DNA from: Flavobacteriales bacterium
GTDB lineage: Bacteria; Bacteroidota; Bacteroidia; Flavobacteriales_D; Sanyastnellaceae
Direction of reading: 5' to 3'
Assembly (NCBI GenBank): GCA_947464415.1
Contig: CANHWU010000007.1
Coordinates: forward strand, 1-40,263
Length of the DNA stretch: 40,263 nt
The notes beneath the pieces are model-generated. The model made no database searches. It worked only from the letters and a program-made list of their open reading frames with translations, and was not told where the DNA came from. Shown here in pieces: positions 25,508-39,740 of the stretch. Within the stretch, counting starts at the first letter, position 1, and every line of letters begins with the position of its first letter. Made by a program: the position numbers and the translations under genes.

Positions 25508-26035
25508 TTAATCTTCTTTATCAGCTGTTTCTGTTTGATCCGCTACAGCAATTAAATCAAACTGTGGTATTTCAGAAATTTCCAAGAAATGACTTGTAAT
25601 TTTGTCGAGATAACCCTCTGTAATAATATCGTCTTCCAAATACAATTCGATGTCAGAGAAACGGGCTAGAATTGTTTCGTCACTTACATTTAAACGATGT
25701 CGTATGTTCTTGAAAAACTTTATTTCTGAATATTCAATTTGCTCGTCTGCTTTAATTGTTTGAATTGCAAAATCAAGCAAAGTCAATTCTTCTTGTTCAT
25801 TTAGTTTTGCCTCCTTGAGGAGGTTAAAATAATACTGGATAAAGGTTTTGCCACCATGGTTAATCTTGCTAACGAGCAAATTGATTTCATCTTGAAAGTT
25901 GAAATTGGCAAACAAGGTTGATTTTTCACATAATGATTTAAGTATGGAAATTTCCCTATCATCGATATTTCCATCTGCAGCCATGCAGCAAAAAGCTGTC
26001 TTTAGTAAAAGTTTATCAAAAGTAATTGTCTCCAT
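25508..26035 (-). CDS. TerB-like domain protein
   Basis: A 175-residue all-helical acidic protein, starting METITFDKLL (the frame upstream to 26095 overlaps the previous gene). The N-terminal CMAADGNIDDREISIL (17-32) and a second copy IKADEQIEYSEIKFF (94-108) match the paired acidic helix-turn motifs of TerB/DjlA-type domains, thought to bind divalent metal. In DjlA a TerB-like domain is joined to a J domain that works with DnaK; here it is a separate gene in an operon with Hsp70. It is the last gene of the cassette, 16 bases after the kinase/AAA gene. Confidence 0.68.
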   Translation of the reverse strand: METITFDKLLLKTAFCCMAADGNIDDREISILKSLCEKSTLFANFNFQDEINLLVSKINHGGKTFIQYYFNLLKEAKLNEQEELTLLDFAIQTIKADEQIEYSEIKFFKNIRHRLNVSDETILARFSDIELYLEDDIITEGYLDKITSHFLEISEIPQFDLIAVADQTETADKED

Positions 26036-26051: not shown

Positions 26052-27857
26052 TTATTTCTTGAAACCAATTTTTGATCTTTCACCGCTCTGAACATTGTTT
26101 TCGCCGTCCACTTTCGCCTTCATTTCTTCGTATTTTCTTAATTCACTCAATGACACTGTGGGTTTTGTATTCTTTATTACCTGCTCCAAAATATCCATGG
26201 ATATCCTTGATTTTGTCTTCAACGCTGACCTCGAAGCTTCATTGACCAATAGTTCAATATCTGCTGAAACATAGTGCTCGGTGAGGTCTGATAGTCGAGC
26301 GTAATCAATTCCAAAATCCAATGGACGATTTTTTAAATACATCTCAAACATCGATTTTCTCGCTTCAAAATCAGGCGGCGGTAAATAAAACTTTTTGTCC
26401 AAACGTCCAGCCCTGAGCATTGCAGGATCTATCAGGTCAGGGTAGTTGGTTGCGCCAATAATAAAAATACCTTTTTCACCTGTCCTATCCATTTGAGCCA
26501 ACATCTCATTCACCGCGCTTTTAGCCATTTCATGAGCATCACCATCACGACTAGGCAAGAGCTCATTTATTTCATCAATGAAAATGATGGTGGGTGCATT
26601 TTTCTCCGCTTCCTCAAACATCTTAGCTATGTTCTCTTGTGTGGCGTTTATAAATCTGCTTTTCAAAGTTGATGGCGTTGCCAATAAAAAATTAAAGCCA
26701 ACTTCCTCTGCGAAGTGTTTAGCAAAAAATGTTTTGCCACATCCAGGAGGGCCATACAACAACATTCCATTTGGAATAGTAACCCCATATCGAGCATATT
26801 CCTCCGGACTATCCAGTGCATCAATCACATCCAATTTCAATTGTGCCTTCAACTCCTCCATTCCTGCTATGGCAGCAAATCCCTTTCCTTTGGCTTTCTT
26901 ACTCTGGATTTTTTTCTCTGCGCTGTTGCCTGACTTTACTTTTTGAATCCTGTCCACGTCCTCCACTTCAATTTCGCCGTTCAACGCTCGGAGAAACTCA
27001 TCTGCACTTTGAATACGATCTTCTGAATCTTGACAAAGCGCTTTTTTCAAAAGCAAATTGGTGCGCTCTTCAAACCCAATAAAGTCATTTGGAATTTTTG
27101 AAAGTGAAAGAGGTTTACTTCTTTCCTGTAAGATAAACTCTTCCGCTTTAGCTCGATCTAATTGAAATTGTGAGATGTCTTTAAACCAAGGGGGAAGTCC
27201 GAATAGCAATTGATACATCACTGCTCCAACAGAAAAAACATCACTCTGCGGCGAATACAAACCATTAAAACACTCGGAGGCGGTGTAATTCAAATTCAAT
27301 CCTTCCTTATTAAATGCTTTGGTTGATTGGTGGAATGAACGGGCAAAACCAAAATCTATGATTCTTGCCTTTGGAACATCTGCCGATAAATCGAGCATGA
27401 TATTATGGGGTGTAATTTCATTGTGAATAATTGGATTCGGTAAACCGTGCAAATAAATTAACCCCTTTAAAACATCTGCAATGATGGACTGAACATCGTA
27501 GTAATTGTTAAACGACTCTCGGCTCATTCGCTCAGCCAAAGTTTCACCAGCTATGAAATTCAACACCAAATAACCATACTTCTTATTCTCAAAAATCAGT
27601 TCTCCACTATCCTTGTAAGCAACAACATTATCGTGATCAATTTCTTTCAAGAACTCAATCTCAAGCAAATTGTTTTCTTTGTCAAATGCTGAACGATGGA
27701 GTTTAGAATAGTTGAAAAGCTTAAGGAAATACAATTTGCCATTCGTTCCCTTTACCCTATACGTTTGAGCATTACTTCCTTGCTTGATAAAAAGCAAAAC
27801 GGTGTATTGATCGTGGATTGAAAAGCCCTTTGGTAATGTGCCAATAGTATTACTCAT
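26052..27857 (-). CDS. Protein kinase-like domain fused to AAA+ ATPase
   Basis: A 601-residue cytosolic fusion. Residues about 15-290 are a eukaryotic-like Ser/Thr kinase fold: Lys46 in YFLKLF, alpha-C Glu67, DFG at 168-170, SDVFSVG at 205-211. The glycine loop is degenerate (IKQGSNAQTY) and the catalytic HRDLKPxN is HNEITPHN (145-152), so Asp is Glu and Lys is Thr, pointing to a pseudokinase or very weak kinase. Residues about 325-560 are an intact classic AAA domain: Walker A GPPGCGKT (369-376), Walker B IIFIDE (424-429), sensor GATN (468-471), Arg fingers Arg482/Arg485, and a possible pore-loop Phe402. It starts one base inside the Hsp70 stop (TAATG), so translation is coupled. Confidence 0.88.
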   Translation of the reverse strand: MSNTIGTLPKGFSIHDQYTVLLFIKQGSNAQTYRVKGTNGKLYFLKLFNYSKLHRSAFDKENNLLEIEFLKEIDHDNVVAYKDSGELIFENKKYGYLVLNFIAGETLAERMSRESFNNYYDVQSIIADVLKGLIYLHGLPNPIIHNEITPHNIMLDLSADVPKARIIDFGFARSFHQSTKAFNKEGLNLNYTASECFNGLYSPQSDVFSVGAVMYQLLFGLPPWFKDISQFQLDRAKAEEFILQERSKPLSLSKIPNDFIGFEERTNLLLKKALCQDSEDRIQSADEFLRALNGEIEVEDVDRIQKVKSGNSAEKKIQSKKAKGKGFAAIAGMEELKAQLKLDVIDALDSPEEYARYGVTIPNGMLLYGPPGCGKTFFAKHFAEEVGFNFLLATPSTLKSRFINATQENIAKMFEEAEKNAPTIIFIDEINELLPSRDGDAHEMAKSAVNEMLAQMDRTGEKGIFIIGATNYPDLIDPAMLRAGRLDKKFYLPPPDFEARKSMFEMYLKNRPLDFGIDYARLSDLTEHYVSADIELLVNEASRSALKTKSRISMDILEQVIKNTKPTVSLSELRKYEEMKAKVDGENNVQSGERSKIGFKK

Positions 27858-30391
27858 TATCTTAAAGTTGTACCATCGTCATTACTTGGATCAATTCTCA
27901 AATCCCATATTTGATGAAGTATTGGACGTAATTGACTTGTTTTACCTTCTTGAATCAATTTTAAACCTTGATTAACCAATAGGCGCGCTTTGTTTTTATC
28001 CTTCCACTTTAAGTTCTCAAACTCTCTATCGTGGTATTCTAAGCGACCTTTGTCTACCAATCCCCCGGAAACTGAATTCCTTAACTCTCTGTCAAGGCTC
28101 TCAATTTCTTCGGTCAATTCTTTGGCTTCCCTTAATTCCTTATGCTTAATAATATGCTCAATCGTTCGCTTGAATTCTTGAACATGTACTTCTATTTTAT
28201 CCATGTTCAAATCTTCGTCATGACTATTTGCCTTTATCTTTTTTATTAAATCCTCCAATTCATAGAAGGCATCTTTTAGCTCTTTCTCAACTTTTGGCCA
28301 TTCCGCAACTTTTTCAGCTCCATCTAACTTTAATAACTCTTTACGTAATCCGTCCAGAATTTTCATTTTGCCATCCGCACTTCCTTTTTCATTTTCCAAT
28401 TGTTCTTCAAAAGCATCCAGTTTTTCGGCAACATCATCCGCATTTACTTTTTGTGCAATTTGTTTTGCTTTTGAAATTTCTTCTGTCAAAAATTCTTCTG
28501 TTGGAGGTTCAGTTTGCTTTATTTCAATTTCTAATTCTTCAGTATGATTTAACAGTGGGAAATAAGCACTGAATTTCATTAGTTGAGAACCATCAACTTT
28601 AATTGTAATGTCTACATCACTTCCTTCGGGTAACAATCCCGGCAATGTCTCACCAGTTATTATTACTTCATTTACTAAGTTATTTAGCGTTGGTGTTGTA
28701 CCTTCTGAATTATATTCTCCTTGATAAATTGGAATGCGAATAATGTCTTTAATCATCCCAGGTCTAATCGCACTTCTTGTTTTTAAACCATTTCTTACTC
28801 CAGTAACAGGAATAGATTTGTTTTTTTCTAATCCTTTCACACAAGCAAATCTATCATCTTGAAATTCTGAGAAATATTTTCCTATTCCAATATTATATGG
28901 AAGTACTTGCATTTTGTCAAGCCCCCCTATACCTTGTATAATGCTAAATTGATTTGGTTGGCAATCCAACTTATTTCCTGCTTCATCATAAACATTTATT
29001 TCAAACGAATTGGAACGCCCCTCAACCAAAAGTACATCAACAATTGTAGCTTTTTCTCCAATAAGTTTCTTACCACTAGACCATAAACCATCAAAACGAA
29101 CTACATCAGCATAAATTTTATCAGGAAAAGTACCGGTTGTTTTTTCTTTCAGCACTCTCAAATTAACCATTTCGTCAAATTCAACGGTAGTAGCTTCATA
29201 TTTAATATCAAGTTGAAGTTTGGTTTTGTCTCTTGTGGTTTCTTTCACTTCTTCTGATACAGATATGGTAGAAGCAAATAATGCTGCACCTTTTGCTACC
29301 ACTGTCATCGGGTCAACAGAAGTGTCAACTTTATCAGTGATTTGCTCTTTAAGCATTCTACGCAAAATTGGCGAATAAGTTGGGCCACCAACCAAAATCA
29401 ATGCGCCAAGGTCAGAACCTTTTAAGTTGTTTCGTCTCAATAATTCTTTACTAATGTCAATTGCTTTCTGAAAAATTGGAGCAACAACATTTTCCATTTC
29501 CTTTTGAGTAACTAAAACATCAATTTCGGGCTCATCCCCATTGTCGTCCTCAAAAGGCAAATCGCCTAAATTTGATAGTATATTATGTGAATCTTTAAAT
29601 GACAACTGAATTTTTGCTTCCTCAGCATAGAATTTTACCGCGTTTCTTAAAATCTCCTTTTTGTTTGTATCGTCCAATACACTATCAATAGCATAATTCT
29701 GTTGAAGATTTGGAATGATAATTTGGTCAACAATGGCTTCATCTAAGTTTTTACCCCCAAGCCAGTTATCGCCATCTGTATCTTTAACTGCTAAAATTCC
29801 TTCTTCCGCTTTTATCAAAGCGGCATCAAAAGTTCCACCACCAAAATCGAACACTAACCAAAATCCGTCTTTACTTTTTGAACCAAGACCATAAGCAGTG
29901 GCGGCAGCCACAGGTTCTTGTAATAGTTCAATGTGCTTGAAACCTAACATTTTTGCTGCTTCTTTCGTCGCCTCATTTTGAGGATTCAAAAATTTTGCAG
30001 GAACAGTAATTACAATTGAATTAATATTCTCATCCTTTACAACTGTTTTAAGTGTTTTCAGAATTTCAGCCGATAGTTCTTCAGAGGTATAAGACCTATC
30101 CATATTTGAACTTTCATAAGAGTGAGTCGTTCCCATTGTCCGCTTAAACTCAATGAAAGTATTTGTCTTTCCAGTTTCAAATGTTTTCAACGCTCTTGCA
30201 TTGTCATTCTTCATGGTGTTATAAGCAGCATCACCTACAATGACATCTTTCTTTTTGTTAAAATGAATACACGATGGAAAAGTGTCTTTAAGAGTTTCTG
30301 ATTTCTTAATTGTTGGAACTCCGTTTTCCATTCTTGCTATTGCTGAATTTGTTGTTCCTAAGTCAATGCCGTAGTCAATTTTATTTCTCAT
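27857..30391 (-). CDS. Hsp70 family chaperone with long helical C-terminus
   Basis: An 844-residue protein, about 200 longer than DnaK. The ATPase domain is intact: phosphate-1 loop YGIDLGTTNSAIA (7-19), phosphate-2 FDFGGGTFDAALI (181-193), adenosine motif VGGPTYSP (334-341), and the connecting EPVAAATAYG. Residues about 380-640 are beta-rich, replacing or diverging from the usual substrate-binding domain. From about 645 to the end is a long charged helical region with coiled-coil character, without the EEVD-like or acidic tail of standard DnaK. This is not the housekeeping DnaK. It is followed directly by the kinase/AAA gene and preceded by the GrpE-like gene. Confidence 0.9.
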   Translation of the reverse strand: MRNKIDYGIDLGTTNSAIARMENGVPTIKKSETLKDTFPSCIHFNKKKDVIVGDAAYNTMKNDNARALKTFETGKTNTFIEFKRTMGTTHSYESSNMDRSYTSEELSAEILKTLKTVVKDENINSIVITVPAKFLNPQNEATKEAAKMLGFKHIELLQEPVAAATAYGLGSKSKDGFWLVFDFGGGTFDAALIKAEEGILAVKDTDGDNWLGGKNLDEAIVDQIIIPNLQQNYAIDSVLDDTNKKEILRNAVKFYAEEAKIQLSFKDSHNILSNLGDLPFEDDNGDEPEIDVLVTQKEMENVVAPIFQKAIDISKELLRRNNLKGSDLGALILVGGPTYSPILRRMLKEQITDKVDTSVDPMTVVAKGAALFASTISVSEEVKETTRDKTKLQLDIKYEATTVEFDEMVNLRVLKEKTTGTFPDKIYADVVRFDGLWSSGKKLIGEKATIVDVLLVEGRSNSFEINVYDEAGNKLDCQPNQFSIIQGIGGLDKMQVLPYNIGIGKYFSEFQDDRFACVKGLEKNKSIPVTGVRNGLKTRSAIRPGMIKDIIRIPIYQGEYNSEGTTPTLNNLVNEVIITGETLPGLLPEGSDVDITIKVDGSQLMKFSAYFPLLNHTEELEIEIKQTEPPTEEFLTEEISKAKQIAQKVNADDVAEKLDAFEEQLENEKGSADGKMKILDGLRKELLKLDGAEKVAEWPKVEKELKDAFYELEDLIKKIKANSHDEDLNMDKIEVHVQEFKRTIEHIIKHKELREAKELTEEIESLDRELRNSVSGGLVDKGRLEYHDREFENLKWKDKNKARLLVNQGLKLIQEGKTSQLRPILHQIWDLRIDPSNDDGTTLR

Positions 30392-30412: not shown

Positions 30413-31321
30413 TTAGTAGCCAACAGAAACTTCTATTTGGGCTGTTTGAATCATTTTGTCATTATACATTACGGCAGGTATTAAAATTTTCGATATTATT
30501 TCCTGCCCCTTTTCCAAATTTTCATCCGGAATTGAACTTGTAACTATTACCTTTAATCCCTGATGAAACTGTTTGCCCAGGAGTTCAGGCATCTCATAGC
30601 CATTAGCAGAAAGATTGTCTTTCAATTTTCCAACGGATGCTTGTAACTGTTTCAAGCCTTTCGTTTTTGAATCCATCAAATTGATGTTTCTCTCAATTAG
30701 ATTGATTTCACTTGCAACTTTCAAAGCCAAAGAATGGTCGGGTTCTGAATTTGGGTCTTTTCCGCCTGCTCCTTTTAAATCATTTATCAAAACCAATAAT
30801 TTCTCTATCAAATCCGCTTGCTTTTGAAACTCGACTACAATGCACTCATCAATCGACGATTTGGTCTTGCTCAACTGATCAATAAAATCTGTTTTGTCGA
30901 TTTGTTGCCTTTTATTCAACAACCAATACAAAAGCCCCGACAGCAAAATGGCTAAAAGCACTCCGATAATTCCGTAAAGAGAATTTTTACTTAATGATTG
31001 GTCTACCTCATCAATTCTCTTGTTGGCAGTTTGTTCAGTAGTTGTAATCTGAATGCCTAATTGATTTGCAGTTTGTGAAATGGCGGAGCTATTTTCTTCC
31101 GTTTTGTTTTTTAAACTATCTATGCTCTTTTTTTCATTTGAGAGTTTACCATTTAGATCACTAATTTCAGTTTTCAAACGGCTATTTTCTTTTTGCAAGG
31201 TTTGAATACTTGATTTCAAAGGTTGTAATTCCTTTGCGAAATCCTCTTTAGTTAATGTCTCTGTTTGGGCAAAAGCATTAATGCTTGCCAAAATAAAAAC
31301 GGTTACAATTATTCGTTTCAT
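30413..31321 (-). CDS. Membrane-anchored coiled-coil protein with GrpE-like cytoplasmic domain
   Basis: A 302-residue protein starting MKRIIVTVFI (the longer frame to 31351 lacks support). It has a signal peptide (1-18), a long coiled coil (about 25-110), and one membrane helix (115-136: LYGIIGVLLAILLSGLLYWL). The cytoplasmic part starts NKRQQIDK and is helical to about 237. Its last 65 residues resemble the GrpE beta-wing: an LSANGYEMPELLGKQFHQ segment, an IPDENLEKG turn, then IPAVMYNDKMIQTAQIEV, where GrpE has an R-P-A-x-V-x-V type ending. GrpE is the nucleotide exchange factor of DnaK, and this gene lies 21 bases before the Hsp70 gene. The assignment is by motif and context only. Confidence 0.65.
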   Translation of the reverse strand: MKRIIVTVFILASINAFAQTETLTKEDFAKELQPLKSSIQTLQKENSRLKTEISDLNGKLSNEKKSIDSLKNKTEENSSAISQTANQLGIQITTTEQTANKRIDEVDQSLSKNSLYGIIGVLLAILLSGLLYWLLNKRQQIDKTDFIDQLSKTKSSIDECIVVEFQKQADLIEKLLVLINDLKGAGGKDPNSEPDHSLALKVASEINLIERNINLMDSKTKGLKQLQASVGKLKDNLSANGYEMPELLGKQFHQGLKVIVTSSIPDENLEKGQEIISKILIPAVMYNDKMIQTAQIEVSVGY

Positions 31322-31335
31322 TTTATTCTTTTTTA

Positions 31336-32892
31336 TTAGCCTCTTATCCAACCAATCAATACCATGATGCCTAAAAATGTCGCAATACTAAATACGACTT
31401 CTATACCCTCTTCTCCCCAGATCAAACCAACCAGTATCAAGAAAACGATAATTCCCAAACACCACTTCGCCCACAGTGGAAGTGATTTCAACGTGAGTTC
31501 CGCATTGGCAACTTTATTCTCGGTCTTCCAATAACAGATGTATTTCACCTTATTAACCTGTAAAAAGCTCAGCTTTCCTATTACAAAATCAACTAAATTT
31601 TTATATTCATTCAATTGAGTTGAATTGGCCATAATCTTTATTTTCTCGACGTTTTTATGCGTAATCGTTTTCAATATCAAATCAACAACCTTGTCCCAAT
31701 CAACTGACTTTTCTATCATTTGATTTACTTTGCTCCAATTGATTGTTTGATTAAATCCTAAAGGCATTGCATGAACCTCAGCTGTGATTTTAGTTTTGTT
31801 GGTTTCATATGCGTTCTTAACTGATCTTAATAATTCTAATGCGCTATTAAGTTCTTTATCTTTCATTCTTGAAAGCGTTTCAATGCTATCTTTAATCCTG
31901 TCCTTCGTTAGTTTTCCAAATGCAACTCTCTCGGCTTGCTTCGCCAAGTGCAAAGCAATTTCTAAATAATTTTCACTACTTTCTTTTTCCTGACTTTCAT
32001 TGAAGTAATCAATGCTACACTGTAAAATTTCGTTTGCTAACTTATCAGAAATAGATCCTAACTTTATGTCATCCTCACCAACCATAACTTTAAGCTGCTT
32101 CAAGTCATTTTCTGTTGAATTAAACAGTTGTTGACCTGCCTTGGCTGCTTCGGATTTACTCGCTTTCCTTCTGTTTCTTGCGCTTTCTATTTCTCTCTCT
32201 ATTTTCTCAATAGGCTTTTGAATAAATCCTTTGAGGAAATCTTCTTTGGCCAAGAACTCTTGCTTTTTTAATATGTCCAAGAATCCATTGGATGTTACAC
32301 TACCTGTTTTGTCAATTTCAGATTGGACTTGCTTCAGAAACGAAAGTTGGAGTTCTTTTGGCGAAGTTTTAAAGGTCTCATCTGCAGCCAAAGCTTTAAA
32401 ATCTTTTATGAAATCGCTTTCAAGAAATTTAAGTTTCAAAGTAATGCCCTGTTCTAGGATCGCTTCATTGGTATTCGTTCCTTCTAAAATCCCACTTAAA
32501 TAAAGTGTTCCCAGGTTGTGATACGCGGAAGCATTTCGTTTAGAAACTTCCCCATTTGTTGTCAGTTTGGACCAGATGCTAATTACTTGATCTAGATCCC
32601 CTTCCTTTATGGCATCAAAGGCAGGTTCATCGGTGATTGGATTCCCATTATAAAACCAGAAGAGGGCTGCACCCATTTTATCACTATCCAAGTTGAGTTT
32701 TGATGCCGCTTCATTTACTTGCTCGATTGTTCGATTAAAATGTCCCAGAGGTCGGAAAAAATAGTCCTCAGGAGGATCCTGATCTGCTTCAAGATATTTC
32801 GTGAGTCTACTGATCTTTTTTGTTTGTTCCTTCGCGCTCGTTCCAACAAGCAGTCCAACGATTCTGTAAGGGTTGTTTAATACGGCATTCAT
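31336..32892 (-). CDS. Membrane protein with J-domain-like N-terminus and helical repeat region
   Basis: A 518-residue protein. Residues about 7-66 (NPYRIVGLLVGTSAKEQTKK, then a charged helix KYLEADQDP and a late helix TIEQVNEAASKL) have the order of a J domain: YxILGv-type start, basic helix II, loop, helix III. The loop lacks HPD. Residues about 75-130 have TPR-like helix pairs (AFDAIKEGDLDQVISIW, ASAYHNLGTLYLSG); about 230-390 is charged and coiled. Two membrane helices (about 468-488 and 493-515) close the protein, so the bulk is cytoplasmic. It is 14 bases before the GrpE-like gene. It is probably the co-chaperone of the cassette, though possibly only a J-like relic. Confidence 0.62.
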   Translation of the reverse strand: MNAVLNNPYRIVGLLVGTSAKEQTKKISRLTKYLEADQDPPEDYFFRPLGHFNRTIEQVNEAASKLNLDSDKMGAALFWFYNGNPITDEPAFDAIKEGDLDQVISIWSKLTTNGEVSKRNASAYHNLGTLYLSGILEGTNTNEAILEQGITLKLKFLESDFIKDFKALAADETFKTSPKELQLSFLKQVQSEIDKTGSVTSNGFLDILKKQEFLAKEDFLKGFIQKPIEKIEREIESARNRRKASKSEAAKAGQQLFNSTENDLKQLKVMVGEDDIKLGSISDKLANEILQCSIDYFNESQEKESSENYLEIALHLAKQAERVAFGKLTKDRIKDSIETLSRMKDKELNSALELLRSVKNAYETNKTKITAEVHAMPLGFNQTINWSKVNQMIEKSVDWDKVVDLILKTITHKNVEKIKIMANSTQLNEYKNLVDFVIGKLSFLQVNKVKYICYWKTENKVANAELTLKSLPLWAKWCLGIIVFLILVGLIWGEEGIEVVFSIATFLGIMVLIGWIRG

Positions 32893-32893
32893 A

Positions 32894-33442
32894 TTATTTC
32901 CTTTGAGTTACAACATAAAATTCCCAGGTGTAACCCATATTGCTCGCCATATTCTCTGTTCCAATGTTCGGTATTACACCTGGTGCGGAAGCTCGATAAT
33001 TATATGAACCTGGACTTAATGTAAGTATTTGTTTTTGCTTAGGTGAAAAAATATAAGTATCACTGTTTAGTTTTAGAGTCAATGTCAATGCAGTGTTATT
33101 GTAAATTTCAATTTCTGGCTTGTATGAAGAAGTTCTACCATTCGGGGTAAACATCCCGCTCTCATTTTCCCTGATTCGTTGACCAACGTTTACAAATGAT
33201 TTATGAATAAACCCCTCCCTATCAGTTGCGATATCAATTATGTTATAGAAATCATTCTCCGGTTCTAAGGATATAATGAATACTTGTGATCTTGGAGCCA
33301 ATGAGGCAATTATAGGATATTCTTTACCCGGCCCTTCCCTGAAGTTCACCTGTTTCGTCACCGTTCCCAAATATGACTGGCTAAACCCTATTGAAGTAAG
33401 GGCAACGGAAAGTATTAAGAGGAATAGTTTCTGAATTTGCAT
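32894..33442 (-). CDS. Exported bacterial SH3-domain protein
   Basis: A 182-residue protein starting MQIQKLFLLI (the longer frame to 33556 is not supported), with a signal peptide cleaved near FSQS (residue 22). A bacterial SH3 (SH3b/SH3_3) domain spans about 24-85, with TKQVNFREGPGKEYPIIASL and a final DREGFIHKSFV. The C-terminal half (108-179) is a separate beta domain with YIFSPKQKQILTLSPGSY, somewhat like small PEGA-type or fibronectin-like folds. SH3b domains in the periplasm often bind peptidoglycan or peptides. It is the first gene of the chaperone cassette and ends 1 base before the J-like gene. Confidence 0.78.
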   Translation of the reverse strand: MQIQKLFLLILSVALTSIGFSQSYLGTVTKQVNFREGPGKEYPIIASLAPRSQVFIISLEPENDFYNIIDIATDREGFIHKSFVNVGQRIRENESGMFTPNGRTSSYKPEIEIYNNTALTLTLKLNSDTYIFSPKQKQILTLSPGSYNYRASAPGVIPNIGTENMASNMGYTWEFYVVTQRK

Positions 33443-34335: not shown

Positions 34336-34451
34336 ACCATCCCTTTTCAAAAACATCTATTGAGGATTATCGGGATTAAATTTAATTCGGCTACACTTAT
34401 GAAAATCAATGGTTATTGAGTTTTGCTGAATTAGTTTATTATTTTTATAGC

Positions 34452-36164
34452 ATGAAAACAAGCCGCGTTTTTGTTTGCCTTTTTATGCTGGTGTTTGCAA
34501 GTGTTCCTATTTGGGGACAAAAAAACTATATAATCGAATACAGTAATAAAAACAACACTTTCCAATATTTCATTTCTTCCGAAGATGGAAGTGAATCTAA
34601 GAAAAAACAAGTACGGTCTTTTCATCCAAAACCTGATGATCATATCACAATGGTGGTAAAGGATTACAACGGTTTTATCTATTCTCCGCAAATTGGCTTT
34701 AAATCTGAAGTTACGACCAATCAAACGCCTACTTCCTTGAGTGTATTAGGTTCCATGAGCTCCGCTCTTTTGGGCGTCGATTTATCTTTTCTATCAAAAC
34801 TCCATTCCATTCCTTTATCGAGAGGAGAAGCTCAATGGAATCCCGAGGAAAAAGAAGTAATGGACCAACTTTCTATATTGGAAAATCAATCGAGCCTTCT
34901 CATGGAGAAATGGGAAATTCAAAACGATATACTTTCCATTTCACATGCTCCACAAAAGACAACGGCTGAAATCAAAAAAGAACTGACCCCTACCATTCAG
35001 CGCTGGAAAGAAACACCAGACGTTGATTGGAATTCCCTTCATAAAGCCGCCCAGCACTTAGAGAATTCTTCAACTAAAAATTTGCGAAGCACCATTACCG
35101 ATCAGTTGTCGCAAATTGCAGATGTTCAAAATCAATTGAAATCGATTGAACAAACACCGCTCATGACGAATCAGCAAATTTTGCAACTTGAAAATTTAGC
35201 CCTCCAAATTCCTGAATCCACTTCCCTTCCAGTATCGTTAGCGTCCCTTAAATCAGATGAAACGGCCAACGGCACATTGGAAAACATCACCGTACAAATT
35301 AGTTTTTTAGAGCAAGATCTCACCCAATCGGCTCTATCAAATACGAGCGCTCCCTCTTTTCCTCATCACGATAAAATCATTTACTTTAATCCTCACTCTT
35401 GGAAAAATCCAAATGGTCAGATCACTCATGAATGGTGTGAAGGATGTGAACCTGTAGTCAAAGCAGAAGGATATTTCAATTATCAAAATAGCCAACAAGC
35501 CATGCCTCCTGCGGAATTTGAGTCATTGTTTAATCAGCATCCAGGAGCCTATGGAGAATGGAAAATATATGATGATGAGGGAAAATTAAAGCAACATCTA
35601 CGACTTCAAAATTTCTCCACTGCTACCATTGCCCAGAACCCGAAAACCGCTTTTTCGCAAACCCATACCATTTCCATCGCATCAGCACCTGCTCTTCAGA
35701 TGGGAACTGGTATTTTTATGAATCAAACTTTTGAAGATCGTTTTACTTATCGGAAATTTCAAAATTTGAATGGCGATTCCGTTCTCATTTCATCTGAAGC
35801 CCATGGAGATTGGATTCCCTCACTGGGAGCGCAAATGCGATTACTGATCCCCAATTCATCCCCCGTTCAATGGGGATTGAATTTAGGTGGCAGCGTTAAT
35901 GCCTTTTCTAATATCGACGCGAAAAAAATGAATCTACACTTGGGGAGTGAAATGAGTCTTAAATCTTTTTCCTATCTCAGTGTATCTATGGGTTTGAGCG
36001 CCTGCAGAACCAATCGATTGAACAAAAATTACCAAATTAATCACTGGTACACCCAGAAAGATTTATTTTTTTCTGATGTGAGAAATGATAATAACAATGT
36101 AAGTAACCTTACCCAAGAAATATTCAAGTGGGGCTGGTATGTTGGATTAAATCTTAATTTTTAA
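34452..36164 (+). CDS. Uncharacterised exported protein, possibly outer-membrane C-terminus
   Basis: A 570-residue protein starting MKTSRVFVCLFMLVFASVP with a signal peptide ending near WGQ; an in-frame ATG at 34416 would add 12 residues and break the n-region. Residues about 20-110 are beta-rich. About 120-300 is helical with Gln/Ser-rich coiled-coil character. Residues around 335-375 hold a short motif part with EWCEGCEP and EWKIYDDEGK. From about 395 to the end, alternating strands (GTGIFMNQTFEDRFTY, WGLNLGGSVNAF, LSVSMGLSACR) end in WYVGLNLNF, a terminal Phe typical of outer-membrane barrels. It is the first gene of the operon with two peptidases, 4 bases before the next gene. The function is unknown. 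Confidence 0.6.
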   Translation: MKTSRVFVCLFMLVFASVPIWGQKNYIIEYSNKNNTFQYFISSEDGSESKKKQVRSFHPKPDDHITMVVKDYNGFIYSPQIGFKSEVTTNQTPTSLSVLGSMSSALLGVDLSFLSKLHSIPLSRGEAQWNPEEKEVMDQLSILENQSSLLMEKWEIQNDILSISHAPQKTTAEIKKELTPTIQRWKETPDVDWNSLHKAAQHLENSSTKNLRSTITDQLSQIADVQNQLKSIEQTPLMTNQQILQLENLALQIPESTSLPVSLASLKSDETANGTLENITVQISFLEQDLTQSALSNTSAPSFPHHDKIIYFNPHSWKNPNGQITHEWCEGCEPVVKAEGYFNYQNSQQAMPPAEFESLFNQHPGAYGEWKIYDDEGKLKQHLRLQNFSTATIAQNPKTAFSQTHTISIASAPALQMGTGIFMNQTFEDRFTYRKFQNLNGDSVLISSEAHGDWIPSLGAQMRLLIPNSSPVQWGLNLGGSVNAFSNIDAKKMNLHLGSEMSLKSFSYLSVSMGLSACRTNRLNKNYQINHWYTQKDLFFSDVRNDNNNVSNLTQEIFKWGWYVGLNLNF

Positions 36165-36168
36165 GACA

Positions 36169-37719
36169 ATGAACGAAAATAAAATTCACTTGTACACTAG
36201 AATTGATATGAATGCCTACTTAACTTTTTTCTTTTGGATAATCCTGATTTTCTCAGGATTCACCTTCTCACTCCCCGTGTCGTCACAAACTCTGAATGCC
36301 ATGGGATGCGATTTCGAAAATGTAGATACAAGCAAAACCGTAAAGGCTCTATTTCCTGGACAGAGAGGAAGTTTACCCGCTCGCTTTTCACTCAGAAACT
36401 ATGCGCCCATGCCCGGTCATCAAGGAAGTGTAGGTTCATGCGCTGCTTGGGCATCCGCTTATGCTGGTCTCACCATAATGAATGGTGTCGAAGCTAAGGG
36501 CAAGCAAAGGGCATTCTCTCCGTGGCATTTGTACAATAGGGTGCAGACCTCTTTGAATCGTCAACCCTGTCAAAATGGATCTACCATCTCTTCTGCCTTG
36601 AATATGCTTAAATCCAATGGATGTCTTCACTTTGATGATTACTCCGCGGATTGCGGAACAGAACCTGCTGTTCAAGATTATCCTTTTGACTTATATGACT
36701 ACCAGGCATTGTCCATTTCCGTTACTGACTTTAAAAAAGCCCTCGCGTCAGAACAACCCATTATTGCTGCATTCAAGGCTTACAATAACACTGGGTGGGA
36801 GATAAAAGAAAACATTATGGATGGAGTATGGAATGGGAAACATACCGGAGAAAGTGTTGGAGGACATGCCATGTGTATCATTGGTTATGATGACCAAAAA
36901 AATGGTGGTGCGTTTGAAGTTATCAATAGCTGGGGAACCCAATGGGGACAAGGTGGATTCTTTTGGATTCGGTACCAAGACATTACAGCTAATATCAAAA
37001 ACGCCTTTAGCTTGATTCCTCATCCCGAACAAGAAACCACTTTGGCGTCCAATGTATACGCCCAACAATTAGAAATACATAACGATTGTTATGACCCCAT
37101 TTATGTTGCAATAGGAATGGAACAAGAGGGAGAATGGGTAAGTAAAGGTTGGTACCCTGTGCTGTCCAATGATCTTTATACCATTGACGTTTCATCGCGT
37201 ACTTCCAATGAAATTCAATGGACTGCAGCGAATCATGATATGAGTATCCAATGGGAGAATGCCGAGGCGTCAATTAAACTCTGCACCGACATGAATCAAT
37301 CTTTTGAATTCACCACACAAGACTGTCCAAATCCCATTGGATTTAATTCGGCTCAACCGAAACCTCAACAATCAAAATACATTTTGCACTTAGGTTGTCC
37401 TACATTACAAGGAAGAAATGCGGAAGTCATTCATCTTGCTGACCACAATGAGGTGATGGAAGATCCTCGATCAAAAGTTGAAGCAAACCAATTTTGGAAA
37501 TCGGAATATGCTTTATACGATTTGCTTTCACAACACCTCATTCCCGCATACATGAACGATGAAGGTGAAAATGTATATTCAGTTTGGATAACCGATGGGA
37601 CTCAAGCACCCGAGAAAAAGGACCTTACACCTGAAGAAATGGAAATGGATCACCGTTTCAAATTTATATCCGAACAAACGGCTCAACAGTGGTTGCAATG
37701 GAAAAAAGAAAAAAAATAA
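36169..37719 (+). CDS. Exported papain-family (C1A) cysteine peptidase with DUF1036-like domain
   Basis: A 516-residue protein. A signal anchor lies at about 16-38, so an alternative start at 36208 (MNAYLTFF) would give a more usual signal peptide. The C1A catalytic residues are all present: oxyanion Gln85 and nucleophile Cys91 in HQGSVGSCAAWASAYAG, His233 in GGHAMCIIGYDD, and Asn253 in VINSWGTQWGQGGFFWIRY. Residues about 303-387 resemble DUF1036 (HNDCYDPIYVAIGMEQ, GEWVSKGWYPV, DC near the end), a small domain found in secreted or membrane proteins. The C-terminal 120 residues are unassigned. It overlaps the caspase gene by 22 bases, so the two are coupled. Confidence 0.85.
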   Translation: MNENKIHLYTRIDMNAYLTFFFWIILIFSGFTFSLPVSSQTLNAMGCDFENVDTSKTVKALFPGQRGSLPARFSLRNYAPMPGHQGSVGSCAAWASAYAGLTIMNGVEAKGKQRAFSPWHLYNRVQTSLNRQPCQNGSTISSALNMLKSNGCLHFDDYSADCGTEPAVQDYPFDLYDYQALSISVTDFKKALASEQPIIAAFKAYNNTGWEIKENIMDGVWNGKHTGESVGGHAMCIIGYDDQKNGGAFEVINSWGTQWGQGGFFWIRYQDITANIKNAFSLIPHPEQETTLASNVYAQQLEIHNDCYDPIYVAIGMEQEGEWVSKGWYPVLSNDLYTIDVSSRTSNEIQWTAANHDMSIQWENAEASIKLCTDMNQSFEFTTQDCPNPIGFNSAQPKPQQSKYILHLGCPTLQGRNAEVIHLADHNEVMEDPRSKVEANQFWKSEYALYDLLSQHLIPAYMNDEGENVYSVWITDGTQAPEKKDLTPEEMEMDHRFKFISEQTAQQWLQWKKEKK

Positions 37720-39740
37720 ATTACCCATTTCTTCTCCTTCTTTTTCTTCCATTCAGCATCTGCAGTTGGAGTCAAACGCAACATGCCCTCATTGTGGCTA
37801 TCGGTGAATACCCTAGCCATCCTGAACAAAAAAAGAACTGGTCTGACCTCAGCTCTAAAAACGATGCGGACATCCTTCAAAAAGCATTGCTCAAACAAGG
37901 GTTTGAGGTAAAAAATATACATGTCATCAGTGATTCAATGGCCACTAAAAAAGACATCGATGTGGCATTTCGACAATTGACACAAGAGGTAAAACAAGGG
38001 GACATCATCTGGTTTCATTTCAGCGGACATGGTCAACAAATACAGGACTTGAATAACGACGAGCCAGATGGATACGATGAAGCGCTCATTACTTATTCTG
38101 CGCCTACAGAGTGCATCAGTGGTTATTTCGGAGAGGATCATCTATTGGATGATGAACTTCAACAATATTTTTTCCAACTTACCCAAGCACTTGGAACCAA
38201 GGGGCACTTACTCGTTACACTCGATGCCTGTCACAGCGGAACGGCCTCAAGAGGTGTTGAAGATTTGGTAAGAAGAGGTACTGATAAAACTTTTGACTTC
38301 AGTTGTCATATACAACAAAATGAAAATCGAATTTCCTATTCCCCTCCTAAAACCACTGAATGGGAAGATCTATTGAAGGAAGAAAAAAACAAAGCCAGTA
38401 TGGTGGTGATATCAGGATGCACCGCGCAAGAAGTGAATTATGAATACAAAGTAAACAATGTGGGTTATGGCACATTGACCTTTGCGCTGTGCGAAGCCAT
38501 GAACAATGCTCAATTCAGTGAAATGACCTATCAGCAAATGTTCATTTTGATTCGGCAAATTGTTCAAAAAAACATGTTGAAAATCAGTCAATACGGCAAG
38601 TTCAAAATCAATCAGTCGCCGCAATTTGAGGGGAACATCCATGCACAGGTACTCAATGGAACGGCCAAAAATGCCGCTTCTTTTTTTGAAGTGAGCAATA
38701 CCATGGGATTGGATATTGAAATTCAGGCCGGTTTACTCAACGGCATTAACTTGGGAGACTCCATCGATTTCGCATTGATCAGTGATCCGAGTAAAACCAT
38801 TCAAAGAGGTGTGGTAACGGATATAAATTCAAAAGAAGCTGTTGTTCATGTGACACAAAAGAAACTGGAAAAAAATGCGGCCAAATACCAAGCTACCGTT
38901 GGTTTCTCTCCGATTCAAAGCACTCCCATTCTTTTATACTGGATGGGCAATAAGAAAAAACAAAAAGAGATTGTCAAGGTTTTGGAATCACACCCAAAAA
39001 TCAAGTGGACAGAATACAAAGAAGAAGCAGATTTTGTTTTTACTACCGATGGAAAAACATGGCACCTGGAGACTCCTACCGGTCAAGCACATCGCAAGAT
39101 GGTCCCCATTTCGCTGGACAGTACTCAATGGCTCCACCAATGGATTGGACAATTGGAGCGGGTAGAACAATTTAAAAAATTAGAGATTTCACAGTCCTCA
39201 CAAGATATCGATTGGGACTACATTGCGGTCGAAAAATGCAATGAATGCGCCGTCAGCGATGACATCTTGGATTTTAGTTGTATTAAAAAACCAAAATCAT
39301 TCTATCGAAAAACCACTTGGAAGGATGGACAGGTGGGGGTTTTGGCCAAAGATCATTTAATGGATATGATCGTGATTAATCGCAACGAGAAACCGCGGTA
39401 TTTAACAGTGGTCAATTTTCTCACCAACGGAGCGTTGCAAGCTGGTCATTCTGTAAAATTACCCACCGATGTGCTTCTTACACCCAATGTCCCTTTCCAC
39501 CTCATCATGACACAAAACGAAATCGGGGAGGAAATTTACAAATACATCATTTCTGAAGAGCCCCTTCACATAGAAAATAGCAGCATCTTTTTGGATGGCG
39601 CACAACAGGCAGGAAAAAGAGGTTTGGGGGATTCTAGCGAGATCTTAACCTTCTTGGCACCTACCGATATTGGAACACGTGGCATTCAAAAAAATGTATC
39701 CATTGAAATCATCAATTTCAAAGTCAAAACAGTGGACTGA
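37698..39740 (+). CDS. Exported caspase-family (C14) peptidase with DUF4384-like C-terminus
   Basis: A 680-residue protein starting MEKRKKINYP, inside the end of the C1A gene (a GTG three codons earlier is possible). Signal peptide about 1-25. The caspase-like p20 region spans about 28-290: ALIVAIGEYP, the catalytic His111 in WFHFSGHGQQ, Cys178 in LVTLDACHSG, and the acidic DEPDGYDEALI segment of metacaspase-type proteins. The middle (about 320-560) is beta-rich and unassigned. The end (about 565-660, MDMIVINRNEKPRYLTVVNF to YIISEEPLHI) looks like DUF4384, a domain common after bacterial caspases. It is predicted to be extracytoplasmic, like the adjacent C1A peptidase. Substrates are unknown. 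Confidence 0.88.
   Translation: MEKRKKINYPFLLLLFLPFSICSWSQTQHALIVAIGEYPSHPEQKKNWSDLSSKNDADILQKALLKQGFEVKNIHVISDSMATKKDIDVAFRQLTQEVKQGDIIWFHFSGHGQQIQDLNNDEPDGYDEALITYSAPTECISGYFGEDHLLDDELQQYFFQLTQALGTKGHLLVTLDACHSGTASRGVEDLVRRGTDKTFDFSCHIQQNENRISYSPPKTTEWEDLLKEEKNKASMVVISGCTAQEVNYEYKVNNVGYGTLTFALCEAMNNAQFSEMTYQQMFILIRQIVQKNMLKISQYGKFKINQSPQFEGNIHAQVLNGTAKNAASFFEVSNTMGLDIEIQAGLLNGINLGDSIDFALISDPSKTIQRGVVTDINSKEAVVHVTQKKLEKNAAKYQATVGFSPIQSTPILLYWMGNKKKQKEIVKVLESHPKIKWTEYKEEADFVFTTDGKTWHLETPTGQAHRKMVPISLDSTQWLHQWIGQLERVEQFKKLEISQSSQDIDWDYIAVEKCNECAVSDDILDFSCIKKPKSFYRKTTWKDGQVGVLAKDHLMDMIVINRNEKPRYLTVVNFLTNGALQAGHSVKLPTDVLLTPNVPFHLIMTQNEIGEEIYKYIISEEPLHIENSSIFLDGAQQAGKRGLGDSSEILTFLAPTDIGTRGIQKNVSIEIINFKVKTVD

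Follow-up and report, generated by a model that had tools for sequence, protein, structure and literature searches.

According to a 2015 review, GrpE is the one known type of bacterial Hsp70 exchange factor, and the accessible part of that review describes no membrane-bound form of it (PMC4753570). The same part describes GrpE as an alpha-helical stalk, short bundle helices and a beta-wing, and the stalk of the E. coli protein as a heat-sensing element (PMC4753570). In yeast, the BAG-domain protein Snl1 is a membrane-anchored Hsp70 exchange factor, termed in 2014 the only known membrane-associated one (PMC3962485, from the accessible text). In the GAP1-N2 GTPase conflict systems, too, the gene for an accessory Hsp70 is clustered with those for a dedicated GrpE and a protein of DnaJ type. 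These systems are centred on a GTPase and FNIII proteins, and no membrane-spanning GrpE is mentioned in the available portion of their description (PMC7159879). An Hsp70 cycle that involves a GrpE is likewise found at a membrane in mitochondria, where mortalin and GrpEL1 act with Pam16 and Pam18 in a motor that sits at the import channel, unlike the system described below. GrpEL1 is a soluble matrix protein, and Pam16 is a J-like protein that lacks the HPD motif.

The locus analysed here encodes a divergent, membrane-anchored GrpE-type co-chaperone of a mobile, mostly Bacteroidota five-gene system, for which we infer an exchange activity. The protein is probably a divergent GrpE-type exchange factor that spans the inner membrane once, docks on the neighbouring Hsp70 and confines its cycle to the membrane. 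It has the same order of stalk helix, two short helices and beta-wing as GrpE (PF01025; E. coli GrpE in 1DKG), a protein that works with an Hsp70, and its profile similarity to that family is significant. On the other hand, GrpE is soluble, whereas the stalk of the GrpE-like protein runs through the membrane into a periplasmic coil. Snl1 shares the membrane anchor but is a eukaryotic protein of BAG fold, for which the available text reports no extracytoplasmic coiled coil (PMC3962485). As for the GAP1-N2 systems, no GTPase family appears for the six operon proteins among the matches listed (the best 25 of 30 for the kinase-AAA+ protein and the best 25 of 56 for the GrpE-like protein). GrpE itself and a membrane-anchored Hsp70 exchange factor in yeast are already known; the literature searched, mostly open-access journal articles, yielded no account of the operon or of a GrpE-type protein that spans a membrane. 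An inner-membrane-spanning GrpE-type factor, fixed in an operon with an Hsp70, a J-like protein and a kinase-AAA+ protein, would extend the GrpE type. The operon would also be a clean system in which to ask if the place of an Hsp70 cycle, or its switching, can be set from outside the cell membrane. In addition, a likely function is provided for a protein currently annotated as 'septum formation initiator'.

The window, that is, the whole stretch of 40,263 nucleotides analysed, comes from a Flavobacteriales genome whose 196 contigs add up to 2.49 million bases. The GrpE-like protein (302 residues) is encoded on the minus strand by an open reading frame with an ATG start at 30413-31321, and all the segments given below lie on that strand. 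Residues 1-19 (31265-31321; MKR...AFA|Q) form the N terminus MKRIIVTVFILASINAFA|QTE. They are followed by the periplasmic coiled coil (residues 20-113; 30983-31264), which is seen in the structure model and whose heptad hydrophobicity was matched by 16 of 2000 shuffles. The membrane helix occupies residues 114-136 (30914-30982), has its hydropathy peak at 117-135 and is followed by KRQQ. The cytoplasmic part, as delimited by the structure models, begins with the stalk helix (residues 137-190; 30752-30913) and continues with two short helices that correspond to the GrpE bundle helices (residues 191-240; 30602-30751; model and rigid alignment). It closes with the beta-wing (residues 241-302; 30413-30601 with the stop codon; model and alignment), which ends in AQIEV. 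The first-pass annotation had described a signal peptide, a coiled coil, a single membrane helix and a cytoplasmic helical part with a beta-wing-like end, just before an Hsp70 gene. The last three are borne out by the model, the hydropathy and the positions of the reading frames. The N-terminal segment is signal-peptide-like by eye and falls under a strict 19-residue hydropathy threshold. That threshold is exceeded by the N-terminal hydrophobic segment in 49 of 83 members, the window protein not being among them.

Relatives are encoded at 80 loci of other genomes. A hydrophobic membrane segment precedes the domain motif in all 83 members scored for topology, mostly by 50 to 69 residues, and the positive charge is greater on the domain side of the membrane helix in 77 of them. 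Three of these members are repeats from contigs that are present twice; the domain motif is missing from two additional frames. The periplasmic coil varies in length among members and is the least conserved segment, with a mean column identity of 0.41 against 0.70 for the short helices and 0.71 for the wing. The number of loci, the constant membrane helix and the top conservation of short helices and wing argue that the feature is not a product of chance. Two variant proteins were noted. One frame (L176, 1495-2673) shares the coil, membrane helix and stalk and stops before the wing. At another locus (L020, 8860-9510), a soluble protein of 216 residues, with no membrane helix by eye, is encoded between a J-like and an Hsp70 gene; it has weak wing similarity (E 0.003) and is possibly a soluble cousin of the GrpE-like protein.

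Structure models were built from alignments of 72 sequences for the whole protein and 71 for the cytoplasmic part. In the whole-protein model, a single helix (residues 25-185) comprises the periplasmic coil, the membrane helix and the cytoplasmic stalk, and is followed by helices 197-215 and 223-239 and by strands 258-301. The cytoplasmic part modelled alone (pLDDT 90.1, pTM 0.82) consists of the stalk helix, two short helices and five strands, so that helical stalk, short bundle helices and beta-wing are all present in the monomer model. In Foldseek searches of the PDB with this model, ranks 1-13 are all taken by chains of GrpE or GrpEL1, with E from 1.6e-6 to 2.4e-2, and the first match to another protein appears at E 0.23; with the whole-protein model, GrpE takes ranks 1 to 11. 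The matches to GrpE have low TM-scores (about 0.3 to 0.5) and a large rmsd. A probable reason is that in the monomer model the stalk packs onto the short helices, whereas the bundle of GrpE forms as a dimer. A rigid alignment sets residues 195-302 onto 88-196 of E. coli GrpE (1dkg_A) over 103 residues, with an rmsd of 3.8 angstrom and Z 7.8. The structure prediction that had been suggested as a check of the annotation thus contains the beta-wing, and the best PDB matches of the cytoplasmic part are all GrpE.

The GrpE resemblance might also have arisen by chance in an unrelated coiled-coil membrane protein, be it EssA-like, septum-initiator-like or BAG-like, a reading that is very improbable. 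VIA-align places helical bundles, BAG domains included, slightly above GrpE (Z 8 to 9 versus 7 to 8) on the helices, Z values of 7 to 9 being common for helical-bundle shapes, and GrpE is not among the matches it lists for the whole-protein model. The Z values for BAG domains (8 to 11 on the helices) lie within the range of any helical bundle, and no BAG match is found among the Pfam matches listed for the C-terminal domain. EssA (PF10661) is matched above its cut-off by the window protein (25.6 bits, cut-off 24.1) and at E 1e-3 by seven of 72 members; the match of the window protein covers residues 20-137 only, which are the coil and the membrane helix. The EssA and septum-initiator matches of this protein are confined to the coil or the membrane helix, and GrpE alone spans the helices and the wing together. 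The EssA identity was set aside, since no type VII secretion components were found among the six operon proteins or the tested neighbours; a T7SS_EccA match is a mere AAA+ resemblance, far below its cut-off.

Sequence profiles, which do not depend on the model, lead to the same family. A relative from Flavobacterium gawalongense (L044), 48% identical to the window protein, scores 29.5 bits against PF01025 (cut-off 25.8, E 7.1e-7), and its residues 133-294, the whole cytoplasmic part, align to positions 7-164 of the 165 of the profile. At E 1e-3, PF01025 is matched by two of 72 members. The C-terminal domain of the window protein has no Pfam match. Its only Pfam GrpE match, below the cut-off, lies at residues 30-87 on the periplasmic coil; this was dropped as evidence for GrpE and taken as coiled-coil resemblance, because the predicted topology places it outside the cell. 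When 22 C-terminal domains were compared with Pfam, GrpE (six of 22, best E 0.0016) and DUF7584 (also six, best E 0.02) were the two families with the most matching members. Eight domains were scanned singly, and three of them match GrpE, all co-linearly (11-110 or 11-109 on 68-165 or 68-164). With 30 ordinary GrpE proteins as the source of a profile, the 72 members score a mean of 8.4 bits and the shuffled or reversed controls -0.65 (743 scored of 792 made), with 86% of the members over the 99th percentile of the controls, which excludes an effect of composition. The profile-profile score against GrpE is reached by none of 300 column shuffles for each of two domain cuts. These shuffled controls were relied upon because the plain hhalign probability is low (9% for the whole protein, 15 to 20% for the trimmed domain). 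The end region in hhalign and HMMER differs in detail, which makes the ends of the wing alignment uncertain. A search of PDB sequences with the C-terminal profile returned coiled-coil noise alone and did not find GrpE.

The divergence from ordinary GrpE is visible in the motif F-D-x-x-H-x-A, in the ordinary alignment of which F and H are nearly invariant and A is invariant. The motif is not kept in the alignment of the members, where [YF]xxGM stands instead, and the partner of the GrpE-like protein is an accessory Hsp70. Because of this loss the protein is named GrpE-like, a divergent homologue and not an ordinary GrpE. The invariant Gly222 was also considered as the conserved glycine of GrpE and dropped, as the alignment sets the two three positions apart. 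The combination of a GrpE-like fold with a membrane helix and a coiled coil on the periplasmic side, as the first-pass annotation had it, is strongly supported by predicted structure and profiles together; in the comparison with PF01025 proposed there, the Flavobacterium relative exceeds the cut-off and the members stand above the shuffled controls, the window protein itself not passing.

The operon is read on the minus strand in the order SH3, J-like, GrpE-like, Hsp70, kinase-AAA+ and TerB-like. The partner Hsp70 (27857-30391; 844 residues) combines a complete nucleotide-binding domain with a long C-terminal half that is divergent, and its start codon at 30391 lies 21 bases past the stop codon of the GrpE-like gene. 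Among 82 loci, an Hsp70 gene is directly downstream at 75 of the 78 testable ones, with a median gap of 17.5 bases, and is missing at three (L088, L094 and L100). The partner Hsp70s carry DLGTTNS (73 of 73) and GGGT (71 of 73), and an LLLD-type linker was recognisable in none of the 73. Upstream, a J-like protein (31336-32892) with C-terminal membrane helices in this copy is encoded directly before the GrpE-like gene at 75 of 80 loci. It resembles helices I-II of the J-domain (hhalign P 1.6e-4; score reached by none of 200 column shuffles) and lacks HPD, which was found in none of 81 such proteins, so the neighbour is named J-like only. The protein-kinase domain fused to an AAA+ ATPase (26052-27857) recurs within 6.5 kb at 50 of 56 loci, and the TerB gene (25508-26035, its start taken at the internal ATG where relatives align) within 8 kb at 38 of 56. 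The gene for a secreted, periplasmic SH3-domain protein (32894-33442, internal ATG start) was recognised at 10 of 82 loci. Elsewhere in the genome, an ordinary GrpE gene and a DnaJ gene stand side by side, which leaves the GrpE-like protein of the operon free to specialise.

Nucleotide exchange on the neighbouring Hsp70 is likely from this dedicated gene pair. On the architecture, conservation, predicted fold, GrpE homology and gene partnership obtained in this analysis, the following mechanism may be proposed. The coil would lie outside, and the stalk, bundle and beta-wing inside, with coil and stalk holding a putative dimer. The wing would dock on the nucleotide-binding domain of the partner Hsp70, and the docked wing and bundle would then help ADP leave, as homology and gene partnership suggest. 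Since a GrpE-like part, a membrane helix and an own Hsp70 occur in one conserved cluster, the chaperone cycle may run at the membrane; it would be confined, along with the J-like protein, to the surface of the membrane. In 47 of 81 copies the C-terminal half of the J-like protein contains a hydrophobic stretch, and this protein would often be membrane-bound too.

It is unlikely that the GrpE-like domain is a membrane tether which recruits the partner Hsp70, or holds it inactive, without useful nucleotide exchange. The ordinary GrpE contact motifs are not kept and the J-like partner has no HPD, which may mean that the cycle has been partly rebuilt. GrpE is dispensable for some E. coli Hsp70s (PMC4753570, accessible part), which counts against an exchange factor, as do the missing LLLD-type linker and the three loci that lack the Hsp70 gene. 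On the other hand, conservation within the protein peaks in the bundle and the wing, and the partner Hsp70 retains its nucleotide-site motifs, both of which speak against a mere tether.

The first-pass annotation had further suggested that exchange is controlled by an extracytoplasmic signal, which is speculative and follows from the architecture. Under this reading, which is rather unlikely, the periplasmic coil would act as a sensor of the envelope, together with a secreted SH3 protein where a locus has one. Strain or pairing of the coil would then travel along a single unbroken helix to the GrpE stalk and switch exchange on the inner side. Such control is compatible with the single predicted helix that runs from coil to stalk, and the heat-sensing stalk of E. 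coli GrpE would make it the reuse of a known lever. A specific ligand is not favoured, given how weakly the coil is conserved and how seldom the SH3 gene occurs. Dimerisation and anchoring by the coil would be simpler and explain the same facts as signalling.

The system has a patchy spread. The cytoplasmic part is found in seven of 395 genomes of the phylum, the frame that stops before the wing being one of the seven, and in one of 100 close relatives, which is the window's own genome. The operon has a lower G+C content (about 0.34 to 0.38) than its surroundings (about 0.41). Plasmid pHALHY02 of Haliscomenobacter hydrossis carries one copy of the operon next to BREX genes, and another copy adjoins a type I methylase and a TIR protein. 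A congener retains both flanks (a uridine kinase with an ArsC-like gene, and an HTH gene), which there enclose other genes. The patchy spread, the plasmid copy and these flanks fit an accessory, mobile system. A phage origin was dropped, as no viral contig carries the system.

A few loci suggest a role in defence or conflict, in which the Hsp70 cycle at the membrane would detect infection or damage and the kinase-AAA+ protein would act on it; this is a tentative possibility and compatible with the membrane-confined exchange factor. The patchy spread, the low G+C island and the neighbours of the two copies agree with it, as does the presence of HSP70 with GrpE in other predicted conflict systems (PMC7159879, available portion). 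Against it, none of the Hsp70, J-like and TerB-like proteins has a PADLOC family. Few defence families occur among the 140 nearest flanking proteins, with no enrichment among the Pfam families listed, a count made without a control set. At the site of the operon, relatives have ordinary genes, namely those for an EamA transporter and a BNR-repeat protein besides unknowns, and the system was not found in viral contigs.

The kinase domain (26052-27857) reads HNEITP, with Glu in place of the usual Asp; the usual motif is HRDLKP. The Glu is present in 30 of the 32 copies, out of 64 scanned, in which the pattern found the loop, and Asp in two, such as L019. The domain may be a pseudokinase or an atypical kinase.

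Several further variations were observed among the operons. The tails of the J-like proteins (L013 to L033) are interchangeable, with membrane helices, glycine-rich stretches or a CFI-box-type end. Two Hsp70 genes occur in one operon at L023, L037, L073 and L085. A reading frame of about 220 residues recurs between the Hsp70 and kinase-AAA+ genes at L025 (13521-14195), L055, L074, L076, L084 and L085, some of these frames having weak coiled-coil-type Pfam matches. In the window, the gene at 34416-36164 is present in one of seven genus genomes tested, its own. It is followed by papain-like and caspase-like (C14) genes at 36169-39740, which adjoin the operon on the opposite strand.
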